Source: Synechococcus sp. PCC 7336 (lineage in GTDB: Bacteria > Cyanobacteriota > Cyanobacteriia > Thermostichales > PCC-7336). Taken from it: a DNA stretch of 64,000 bases. The position numbers and the translations under genes were made by a program. Shown in pieces: positions 18,277-22,442 of the stretch (positions are counted from its first letter, which is position 1; each line of letters starts with the position of its first letter). The notes beneath the pieces were generated by a model. The model had not been told where the DNA came from. It saw only the letters and a program-made list of their open reading frames with translations, and searched no databases. The stretch covers positions 1,659,268-1,723,267 of the forward strand of contig NZ_CM001776.1 in NCBI RefSeq assembly GCF_000332275.1, read 5' to 3'.

Positions 18277-19320
18277 TTGAGCACTAGTACTGGGGCGATC
18301 GAGTCAACTACACCATCTCCCGTCACAACTGCGAATCGGACAGAGTTGCAAGAGGAGAAGAACCCACGCTCGCCCCTGCCGGTTTTATTGGTGGGCCACG
18401 GTTCCCGCGATCCGCAGGGTCGTCAGGCCATTCTCGATTTGGCTGCAGCCTACGCTCAATTCGATCTCAGCCGCCCGGTGATTCCTTGCTTTCTCGAATT
18501 GACCGAGCCCACCATTGCCGATGGTGTGGCAGAGTGCGATCGCCTCGGGCTGCACGAAGCTGTTGCACTGCCCGTATTGTTATTTGGGGCGCGTCATAAC
18601 AAATTCGATATCACCAACGAACTCGATGCCCTCCAGCGCCAACATCCCCATATGACCTTCTACTACGGCGCGCCGATGGGGATTTCGACGGACTTATTGG
18701 ATCTGCTGCGGCAGCGCCTCGCACAGGTGGAGGCGGGCCTGCCCCCCTTGCCCAAACAGGACACCGTGTTGCTATTTGTGGGTCGGGGCTCCAGCGACCC
18801 CGAAGCCAATAGCGAAGCCTATAAGTTAGCGCGTCTGTTGTGGGAAGGGTCGGGCTATCGCTCTGTGGAAATCTGCTTTGTGGGTATTACCCACCCTCGC
18901 CTGGAGGCGGGCTTCGATCGCGCCCTCAGCTTCCAACCCAGGCGCATTCTCGTCGTACCTTACTTCCTTTTCACGGGGGTATTGGTGAAGAAAATTCAAG
19001 CGGCAACAGTCGCCCGCGATCGCGCACATCCCGATGTCGAGATGGTCTGCTTGCCAGAATTGGGAATTGCACCTGCAGTACTGCAGTCACTGTACCGACG
19101 CGAGCGGGAAGCGCAGGCGGGCGAAGTCCGCATGAATTGTCACCTGTGCAAATTTCGCATTGCCGCTAGCGAGGCGTTGAGTCCGGGCGCTCTCCACCAC
19201 CATCACAACCTCAGTTCTCACAGCCACGGCCCCCATCGCCACGATTGCGATGGCGAAGCGGTTGTGGATCCATATGCTGCCCCAATTCACTACCATCAAC
19301 GGGTTTGGCAGCTTCCTTAA
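18277..19320 (+). CDS. cbiX: Sirohydrochlorin chelatase CbiX, long form with cysteine motif and His-rich tail
   Basis: The enzyme inserts cobalt (or another metal) into sirohydrochlorin. The 347-residue protein has two homologous halves, each opening with an LLVGHGSRDPQGR or LLFVGRGSSDPEAN motif; the first His (GHGS) and the metal-binding His of FGARHNKFDI are present. The C-terminal 55 residues contain MNCHLCKF (a CxxC pair) and a run of His residues in LHHHHNLSSHSHGPHRHDCD, a tail known in the long CbiX proteins, where it binds metal or an iron-sulfur cluster. The start is a TTG at 18277 with a good GAGGAAAG ribosome-binding site. It is probably co-transcribed with the ArgC-like gene 140 bases downstream, though this is not certain. 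Cobalt versus iron or nickel as substrate is inferred. Confidence 0.92.
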   Translation: MSTSTGAIESTTPSPVTTANRTELQEEKNPRSPLPVLLVGHGSRDPQGRQAILDLAAAYAQFDLSRPVIPCFLELTEPTIADGVAECDRLGLHEAVALPVLLFGARHNKFDITNELDALQRQHPHMTFYYGAPMGISTDLLDLLRQRLAQVEAGLPPLPKQDTVLLFVGRGSSDPEANSEAYKLARLLWEGSGYRSVEICFVGITHPRLEAGFDRALSFQPRRILVVPYFLFTGVLVKKIQAATVARDRAHPDVEMVCLPELGIAPAVLQSLYRREREAQAGEVRMNCHLCKFRIAASEALSPGALHHHHNLSSHSHGPHRHDCDGEAVVDPYAAPIHYHQRVWQLP

Positions 19321-19460
19321 CCCGCCTGGGTGGCGCTAGGGCGATCGCATCGAACGGTATTCGCCAATTGACTGACCGGTTTGTACGAACCTCCAGAACT
19401 ACAGGTTCGTGATAAGACATTAGAGTCTTTACCCAGCCCGTACGCGAGAGGGAAGCAATT

Positions 19461-20516
19461 GTGCCAGAAGGCCAGCTCGATGTCGGTGTTATTGGCACTC
19501 CCGAATACGGCAGCCAGTTACTGCTCGATCGCTTGCGACAACATCCCAGGGTTCGTATTGCCGCAGATCTGACGGATTGGGGAGAAGCAATTTCTGGAAC
19601 GTTTCAACACGACCCGAGCTGGGTACTCGATGCCGCTCTGGCCAATATCGATCGCGATCGCCTTGCAGAACAGTGTCAAGTTCTCTTTCTGGCCCTCCCT
19701 CGCGGTTGCGCGTTGGCCCTCGTCCCCGATCTGCTGCCGCTCGGCTGCCGCATTATCGATTTATCTGCAGATTATCGCCTGCACGATCTCGATCTCTATC
19801 GGACGTGGTACAGCCAGGGGCAATCCCCCAACCCGTCAGTCTGGCTAGCAGAGGAAGATATTCGCCAAACGGCTACCTACGGACTGCCCGAACTGTTTCG
19901 CAGCGCAATCTCCACAGCAACCCTCGTCGCCTGTCCGGGGGAGTTTGCCACGGCTAGCCTTTTGGCGATCGCCCCCCTGTTACGACAGGGATTTATCGAT
20001 CCCGATCGCATCGCAATCGACGCTAAAGCCGGACTGCCCGCGCTCGCAGATCGCGATCGCCCCAAGACTGCCGATCGCCTTTCTGGCATTTGGACCGAGA
20101 GCGTAGGCCAGCATTGTCAGACCCCCGAAATTGAAAGGGTTTGCAGCGATCTGGTCGGTCGAGGCGTAGCCGTACAATTTACTGTTCATCGGGTTCCCAT
20201 CGAACGGGGCTTGCTGGTGACGGTCTACGCCCCCATCCGCGATCCGGGGCTGGTTAACGAAGATTTGCTAACCATCTACAAGGCGTTCTACAAACAATCC
20301 GCCTGGATTGAGTTGTTGCCGAGCGGACAGTTCCCCTACAGCCAGCAGGTGGTGGATACCAATATTTGCTCTGTGGGCCTCACCCTCGATGGCCGAACCA
20401 ATCGCCTGGTGGTACTAGCCACTCTGGACGAGAAGCTCAAGGGAAGCATCGGCCAAGCGATTCAGTGTCTCAATATCGTGGCAGGTTGGGACGAAACTCT
20501 AGGATTGCCACAATAG
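19461..20516 (+). CDS. ArgC-like protein lacking the catalytic cysteine
   Basis: The protein is the length (351) and architecture of N-acetyl-gamma-glutamyl-phosphate reductase, with recognisable segments: VGVIGTPEYGSQLLLDRL, IIDLSADYRLHD, TYGLPELFR, QTPEIERVCSDL, FTVHRVPIERGLLVTVYAP and QCLNIVAGWDETLGLPQ at the end. Yet the active site is changed: where ArgC has CPGCYPTAS, this reads CPGEFATAS, so the nucleophilic cysteine is a glutamate. The SGGGR segment that follows the next Lys-rich loop is replaced by AGLPALADR, and the KHRHTPEI motif by GQHCQTPEI. Such a protein cannot use the normal thioester mechanism. It is intact and free of stops, so it is probably a maintained paralogue, with the true ArgC elsewhere. 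Start is a GTG at 19461 after an AGAGGGA sequence. Confidence 0.85.
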   Translation: MPEGQLDVGVIGTPEYGSQLLLDRLRQHPRVRIAADLTDWGEAISGTFQHDPSWVLDAALANIDRDRLAEQCQVLFLALPRGCALALVPDLLPLGCRIIDLSADYRLHDLDLYRTWYSQGQSPNPSVWLAEEDIRQTATYGLPELFRSAISTATLVACPGEFATASLLAIAPLLRQGFIDPDRIAIDAKAGLPALADRDRPKTADRLSGIWTESVGQHCQTPEIERVCSDLVGRGVAVQFTVHRVPIERGLLVTVYAPIRDPGLVNEDLLTIYKAFYKQSAWIELLPSGQFPYSQQVVDTNICSVGLTLDGRTNRLVVLATLDEKLKGSIGQAIQCLNIVAGWDETLGLPQ

Positions 20517-20810: not shown

Positions 20811-20910
20811 TATGTAAATTAATGTAACAAAGACTTTCCGCGATGTCTACCTCTTCTGGGGGATAAGACTGCCAATGTTGCGTCATTTAACCCCTCTTGA
20901 GCGTGAGTTC

Positions 20911-21241
20911 GACTGGCCCCCATCCCCTAACCCCTTCCCCCAAATTTGATGCTGCTGGCGAAATTCATATTCCGAAACATTGGCCATTTGTCTAGATGCC
21001 TGTGGCCCCCTTCCCCTAACCCCTACCCCCAACTTTGGGGGCAGGGGAACAAGGCCCCGTAAGGATTTTCGGCTGTTTCTCCCCTCTCCCAAACTTACGG
21101 CTGACGCCACGCTTCGCGAGGGGAGAGGGGCCGGGGGTGAGGGCAATGCAGAGGACTTGCACCATGCCAATATTTCTAAATGTTAAATTGGCCAGCAGTA
21201 TCAAACTTGGGAGAGGGGCCGGGGGTGAGGGCAATGCAGAG
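20911..21241. repeat. Cluster of G/C-rich interspersed repeats
   Basis: C-rich units begin near 20919 (CCCCATCCCCTAACCCC) and near 21007 (CCCCCTTCCCCTAACCCC), with the opposite-orientation G-rich unit following. A perfect 33-bp direct repeat beginning GGGAGAGGGGCCGGGGGTGA occurs at 21121-21153 and 21209-21241. Open frames through it read LTPGPSPL-like text on one strand, the usual artefact of this cyanobacterial repeat family, so no protein is called. They resemble fragments of MITE-like elements. Confidence 0.7.
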
Positions 21242-21389
21242 TCATCGAACTCAGGTCTCTTGAGGATGCCCGACAGCCCTAGAGGCTTCGGAGCTTCGAG
21301 CGTGCGAAAAGTCGCCTGAAAACAGCTCGAGACGATGGGCAATGTTACGCGCCCATCGTCTTCAGCGGGTGGTAGGTATTGTGGGATGA

Positions 21390-21692: not shown

Positions 21693-22442
21693 CTAGCTCA
21701 ATGGCTTTGCTCGCACCTGGAGAATACCCGGTTCGCTCTGTCGGGGAACCACATTGAAGCGATCGCGATCGGCACAATAGACCAAATCGGCATCCCGCCC
21801 CAGCGCGAGTAGCCGCTGACCGTGACTGGACAGCCGCAGCAACCCCAACAAATTGTCTTGCCATTGACGGTAAAGGGCGATCGAGGCCACCGTTTCGTCA
21901 TTGGCAGCCTTATAAGAGCCAGATGCCTGCTGCAGGGCAGCACAAATCGCCCCCGAGCAAGCAGTGTCTTCTAGAGCGTAAGCCCCCTGCCAGCCGGAAT
22001 TAACCAGCCAAACTGACTCAAATTGCTGCTGGAGTACCTGCTCCACCACCGCCGATAGATTCACAAAGGCGGCAGTCAGCAACACTGGCGCAGTTTGGAC
22101 GCAGGCCAGGGCGCGGGTACCGTTGGTGGTGCTCATAAAAATGCGCTTTTGAGCGACAGTTTCGGCAGTGTAGTCTAGGGGCGAATTGCCCAAATCGTAT
22201 CCCTCGACGGGCTGGCCCCCTCTTTCGCCCGATCGCAGGCGGCGTTCTTGAGGCCAAGCAGCACTGGCGGCATCTAGATCTGCAAGCTCGGCAACAGCTC
22301 GAACCGCTTCAGCCCCTGCTGCAAATGCCGTTGCAATGGTCGTGGTAGCCCGCAAAACATCCACGACGATCGCACAATCTGGACTTGGATTGCTGGCGAG
22401 GGAAGGAACTTGCTCGGGGGCATGAAAGACAGACAGTTGCAT
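21693..22442 (-). CDS. comB: 2-phosphosulfolactate phosphatase family protein (ComB)
   Basis: ComB-type enzymes remove phosphate from 2-phosphosulfolactate in the coenzyme M route of archaea; cyanobacteria keep the gene without making coenzyme M, so the real substrate here is uncertain. The 249-residue protein has the family signatures IVVDVLRATTTIATAF near the N-terminus, LRSGERGGQPVEGYDLGNSP in the middle, and MSTTNGTRAL. These hold the metal- and phosphate-binding residues. The start is the ATG at 22442. The gene stands alone between the small unknown gene and the helicase. Confidence 0.9.
   Translation of the reverse strand: MQLSVFHAPEQVPSLASNPSPDCAIVVDVLRATTTIATAFAAGAEAVRAVAELADLDAASAAWPQERRLRSGERGGQPVEGYDLGNSPLDYTAETVAQKRIFMSTTNGTRALACVQTAPVLLTAAFVNLSAVVEQVLQQQFESVWLVNSGWQGAYALEDTACSGAICAALQQASGSYKAANDETVASIALYRQWQDNLLGLLRLSSHGQRLLALGRDADLVYCADRDRFNVVPRQSEPGILQVRAKPLS

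Follow-up and report, generated by a model that had tools for sequence, protein, structure and literature searches.

A probable type-1 ArgC pseudoenzyme kept beside a type-2 ArgC in Synechococcus sp. PCC 7336, with parallel cases among the cyanobacteria

What can a protein with the fold of ArgC, but without its catalytic Cys, be doing in a cyanobacterium, and why has it been kept? The question is raised by an argC-like gene of Synechococcus sp. PCC 7336, found within a 64,000-nucleotide stretch of DNA that was analysed as a whole and is hereafter called the window. The gene, its motifs and its neighbours are located in the window as follows.

18277-19320, + strand: cbiX, the upstream neighbour of the argC-like gene, with no functional linkage seen
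19447-19453, + strand: AGAGGGA, Shine-Dalgarno-like, 7 nt ahead of the GTG, identified by eye
19461-20516, + strand: argC-like gene, GTG start, 351 aa, a type-1 ArgC-fold protein (TIGR01850, 265.7 bits; Foldseek matches to ArgC) and probable pseudoenzyme
19494-19514, + strand: degenerate Rossmann loop GTPEYGS, for GASGYGG of canonical cyanobacterial ArgC
19932-19958, + strand: CPGEFATAS, for canonical CPGCYPT, with Glu161 (codon GAG, 19941-19943) at the place of the catalytic Cys
20028-20051, + strand: AGLPALAD, for SGTSGGGR, the substrate channel and NADP contacts (roles from PMC10170137)
20109-20132, + strand: QHCQTPEI, for RHRHTPEI, the HRH motif with Gln as its second His (role from PMC10170137)
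20463-20513, + strand: conserved C-terminal segment QCLNIVAGWDETLGLPQ of the ArgC-like protein
21693-22442, - strand: comB-like 2-phosphosulpholactate phosphatase, a homologue of which flanks argC in the order of the window species (f2)

The first-pass annotation had described an intact frame with a good start and a conserved C-terminus, a Glu in place of the catalytic Cys, the loss of SGGGR and an altered KHRHTPEI, and the features listed above bear out each of these points. It had missed the change in the Rossmann loop, as well as the degradation of the PQTKW loop (at 285-288 in reference numbering) and of the DN motif (at 316). In an ArgC of solved structure, Cys is the nucleophile and HRH the site for phosphate and carbonyl; the substrate channel and the NADPH contacts involve the TGAGR loop together with Ser and Tyr residues close to it (PMC10170137). 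The marks of an active type-1 ArgC are all replaced in the window protein: the Cys by Glu161, HRH by HCQ, the TGAGR-type loop by LPALAD and the Rossmann glycines by GTPEYGS. Sequencing error is not a credible cause and was rejected, because four motifs are lost together, TGY cannot become GAG by fewer than two base changes, and the genome (5.07 Mb) is a single contig with a completeness score of 100%.

Family membership is nevertheless clear. The TIGR01850 score lies above the curated cut-off of 233.6 bits and spans residues 7-350, which makes the protein a member of the type-1 family, whereas its 40.9 bits against the type-2 model TIGR01851 fall below the cut-off of 229.85 and place it outside type 2. 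Both Pfam and NCBIfam assign a semialdehyde dehydrogenase fold. The structure predicted by AlphaFold, with moderate confidence (mean pLDDT 68, pTM 0.69), had only ArgC among its top Foldseek matches, the best being 1vkn (E 3.7e-29), and the predicted fold is that of the active enzymes (structures 1vkn, 8afu and 2i3g); homology to ArgC is full length, with 43-50% identity to the cyanobacterial proteins. Among type-1 proteins from genomes with type 1 only, 126 columns are invariant, including 10 active-site and 112 other columns. The window protein keeps one of the 10 catalytic and substrate positions, as opposed to 78 of the 112 others (Fisher p=0.0003), and two of four Rossmann positions. That the catalytic residues are gone while the ArgC fold is kept, as expected of a pseudoenzyme, is strongly supported by these comparisons.

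A second, normal argC, for which the first-pass annotation had recommended a search, is indeed present. The sole other ArgC of this genome (G000:C1:3284996-3285928) scores 487 bits against TIGR01851 (argC_other) and has its active-site motifs intact, among them NPGCYPT and SGYSGGGR; a single clear argB accompanies it. Type 2 carries out the same family of reaction as type 1 and is presumed to be the replacement enzyme, probably an acquired one. It is about 27% identical to the window protein, over part of the length, so a recent duplication of argC was rejected. The first-pass label of 'ArgC paralogue' has to be corrected: the window gene represents native type-1 argC, with its distant type-2 relative as the presumed working enzyme. 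Our preferred reading, to which we give a probability of about 0.8, is that the window gene is a native type-1 ArgC kept as a pseudoenzyme after type-2 ArgC took over catalysis. The type-2 enzyme would have assumed the reduction of N-acetylglutamyl phosphate, after which the native protein would have turned non-catalytic through loss of the nucleophile, the substrate loop, HRH and the NADP loop, while being retained for a second role that depends on fold or surface and not on catalysis.

The same association recurs across the cyanobacteria. Type-2 ArgC scores above the cut-off in 32 of 390 cyanobacterial genomes (~8%), and in the Nostocaceae (family f32) in 79 of 193, with 192 of the 193 also having a type-1 match. 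Type-1 proteins were extracted from genomes with type 2 (76) and without it (61). The catalytic Cys or the second His of HRH is lost in 45 of the 76 and in none of the 61, and adding the NADP-loop and substrate-loop positions raises the altered proteins to 64 of 76 against 0 of 61, a comparison that is partly circular because the columns were picked for invariance in those 61; all of these are raw counts over related genomes and are not phylogenetically independent. A check that is independent and not circular came from scanning the 390 genomes with two codon patterns for the ArgC motif in which the Cys codon is replaced; motifs altered elsewhere would escape such scans. They found Cys-less type-1 ArgC in nine genomes (G000, G040, G053, G089, G107, G128, G190, G334 and G376), and all nine are among the 32 with type 2. 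Type 1 is fully intact in 12 genomes that also have type 2.

Other outcomes were also seen. About 17 of the 32 type-2 genomes have no detectable type-1 match (four of them were checked directly), and in G011, G051, G103, G112 and some 13 more, from families f5, f11 and f13, the native ArgC appears from the gene content to have been fully replaced. In G384, type 1 is intact and type 2 (on contig C53) is broken by TGA and TAG, the reverse outcome if this is not an assembly fault. A damaged type-1 motif occurs in G017, in whose 93%-complete assembly no type 2 was found; its congener G063 has both types. Neither type was found in G142, a member of the Nostocaceae (genus g87) with a 3.8-Mb, one-contig genome rated 99% complete, although its congener G438 has type 1; G142 is possibly an arginine auxotroph or a symbiont.

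Parsimony on the type-1 tree gives at least seven independent losses of the Cys besides that in the window. Replacement by Ser is found in genus g33 of family f16, in most Nostoc, in g195, in L193/L198 and in L156, and two sublineages of g57 have Ala and Gly. The His of HRH has been lost independently about three times, twice to Asp and once to Gln/Ser. At the otherwise invariant columns, 39 substitution events fall in the 10 active-site columns and 83 in the 112 others, and the type-2 proteins of the same genomes keep their motifs in all cases. HRH, K179, R187 and E215 remain invariant across the dead Nostoc clade despite the lost nucleophile; the window protein has gone further.

These dead proteins do not look abandoned. 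The Nostocaceae copies are full length and stop-free, with 71-79% identity to a distant active ArgC. Median pairwise dN/dS is 0.083 in the Nostoc clade with Ser for Cys (22 sequences), 0.090 in the Nostoc clade with Asp for His, 0.089 in g57 (including one member with an intact Cys and a lost His) and 0.086 in g195 (three of six members having an intact Cys), compared with 0.066 for active type-1 ArgC. Judged by these rates, the independently inactivated relatives of the window protein are kept under purifying selection. For the window gene itself, a search of the genome collection with its protein as query found no relative, so that the window species has no close relative in that collection. 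In simulations of neutral substitution, 0.095 substitution per nucleotide left 4.5% of copies of the frame without a stop and 0.19 left 0.4%, both levels being far below the change implied by the divergence of the protein. Since fewer than 5% of frames survive at about 0.1 substitution per nucleotide, an open frame is very unlikely under neutral drift.

Such results bear on the simplest rival explanation, in which native ArgC became redundant once type 2 was present and the window copy is a pseudogene that has yet to acquire a stop. The long branch of the window protein (1.4-1.6 substitutions per site), the complete absence of type 1 from some type-2 lineages and the splitting of type 1 by a frame change in G063 would all suit a dying gene. 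Drift of that length should nonetheless have closed the frame, and it would not confine damage so largely to the active site while sparing 70% of the other invariant positions; GC by codon position is also similar to that of the adjoining cbiX, and the dead Nostocaceae relatives have dN/dS near 0.085. We regard decay as quite unlikely. A narrower version of our preferred reading, in which dead type 1 is a regulatory or stabilizing subunit of active type 2, is rather unlikely. Inactivation is found where type 2 is present and the two types share a fold family, as a subunit model would have it, but their identity is low, type 2 manages alone in about 17 genomes, and the same positions outside the active site are conserved in type-1-only relatives that have no type 2, a sign of an older function.

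Two further rivals would leave the window protein an enzyme. The first-pass annotation had offered a probable pseudoenzyme and a new reaction as alternatives, and it is the former that the lost motifs and the second ArgC strongly support. A new reaction involving Glu161 could be imagined from the charged residue in the nucleophile's place and from H218, the one His of the old pocket that is kept. It is unsupported, because the NADP loop, the substrate loop, HRH and PQTKW/DN are degraded together and other lineages have Ser, Ala or Gly at the nucleophile position; there is moreover no associated operon that would hint at a pathway, and we consider a new enzyme very improbable. Persisting ArgC activity by some other mechanism, with type 2 as a spare, has in its favour a TIGR01850 score above the equivalog cut-off; the thioester nucleophile, HRH and the NADPH-contacting loop are absent and the intact motifs sit in type 2, so that we give this reading almost no credence.

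Returning to a native type-1 protein retained as a pseudoenzyme, the recurrence of the broken protein and its strict preservation suggest that ArgC probably has a second job. With its pocket gone, the window protein is left with only a structural or protein-binding role. The dead Nostoc proteins lack the Cys but mostly retain HRH and the NADP-loop residues, and may still bind a ligand there. The second function must be dispensable in some lineages, given the type-2 genomes without detectable type 1. The product of N-acetylglutamate kinase (NAGK) is unstable and is consumed by ArgC, and cyanobacterial NAGK is controlled by PII. Our leading guess, which we think more likely wrong than right, is that the retained protein binds or regulates another component of the early steps of arginine synthesis, such as NAGK. 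We lean, with reserve, towards the broader proposal that cyanobacterial type-1 ArgC has a conserved moonlighting function separable from catalysis, that the acquisition of type 2 repeatedly exposed it by allowing the active site to be lost, and that most Nostoc and the window species now carry a dedicated regulator or scaffold annotated as an enzyme.

Pseudoenzymes as such are a known kind, and HisZ and the S-adenosylmethionine decarboxylase prozyme both derive from metabolic enzymes. Like dead ArgC, they have lost catalytic residues, kept the fold and have an active homologue in the cell. Dead ArgC differs in that its active counterpart is a distant, probably acquired enzyme and not a sister copy, in that the conversion has recurred independently many times, and in that any partner or regulatory role is putative. 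In the open-access literature on cyanobacterial argC, moonlighting, pseudoenzymes and PII, we found no account of a dead ArgC or of a native ArgC being inactivated again and again once a non-sister replacement had arrived. Sampled altered proteins score 413-436 bits against the TIGR01850 equivalog cut-off of 233.6; catalytically dead ones (L199, L213, L171, L211 and similar) score 422-436 bits and are therefore likely to carry the label of active ArgC in public databases. The gene called ArgC in many genomes of Nostoc and its relatives is probably the wrong one, which bears on models of arginine, cyanophycin and nitrogen. The repeated losses are, in effect, natural active-site knock-outs and ready-made separation-of-function alleles, and their pattern suggests that an enzyme known from textbooks for arginine synthesis does something further in cyanobacteria, something conserved across whole genera.

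As to origin, the first-pass annotation correctly noted that the window gene adjoins cbiX, apart from arginine genes, but this position is not diagnostic, because normal cyanobacterial argC also lies outside arginine clusters. A comB homologue lies 1.2 kb downstream. Adjacency of comB and argC was found in three checked members of order f2, and this shared linkage connects the gene at 19461-20516 with the locus of native argC. Likewise, the argC locus of Nostocaceae is ribBA-argC-eno, and the dead copies checked hold the same place as active argC, which identifies them as the native gene. Examination of the neighbours ribBA, eno, comB and cbiX for a functional clue gave nothing specific.

A phylogeny had been proposed in the first-pass annotation as a check on whether the altered form is an old clade. 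The window protein is not isolated, as it groups (support 59/89) with the broken type-1 proteins L017, L080 and L081 of family f11, with which it has 17 unusual residues in common, such as the Rossmann Glu; elsewhere, in the Nostocaceae and f16, the losses are independent. The comB linkage and taxonomy point instead to the order of the window species, and the f11 grouping is possibly a real clade or possibly long-branch attraction. L017 (G017) has GASEYGG and CPACYAT, L080 (G050) has RHRQTPEI, and the type-1 copy of G063 (L081/L086) is the one split by a frame change, in a draft assembly; all appear to be related to the window protein.

Two minor features flank the gene. Downstream, the intergenic region at 20883-21342 contains short, near-exact direct repeats, in 35-nt and 33-nt pairs about 88 bp apart, and chance ORFs overlap on both strands of this repeat block. 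Upstream, the tail of CbiX (19200-19320) is rich in His (HHHHNLSSHSHGPHRHDC) and is plausibly metal-binding.
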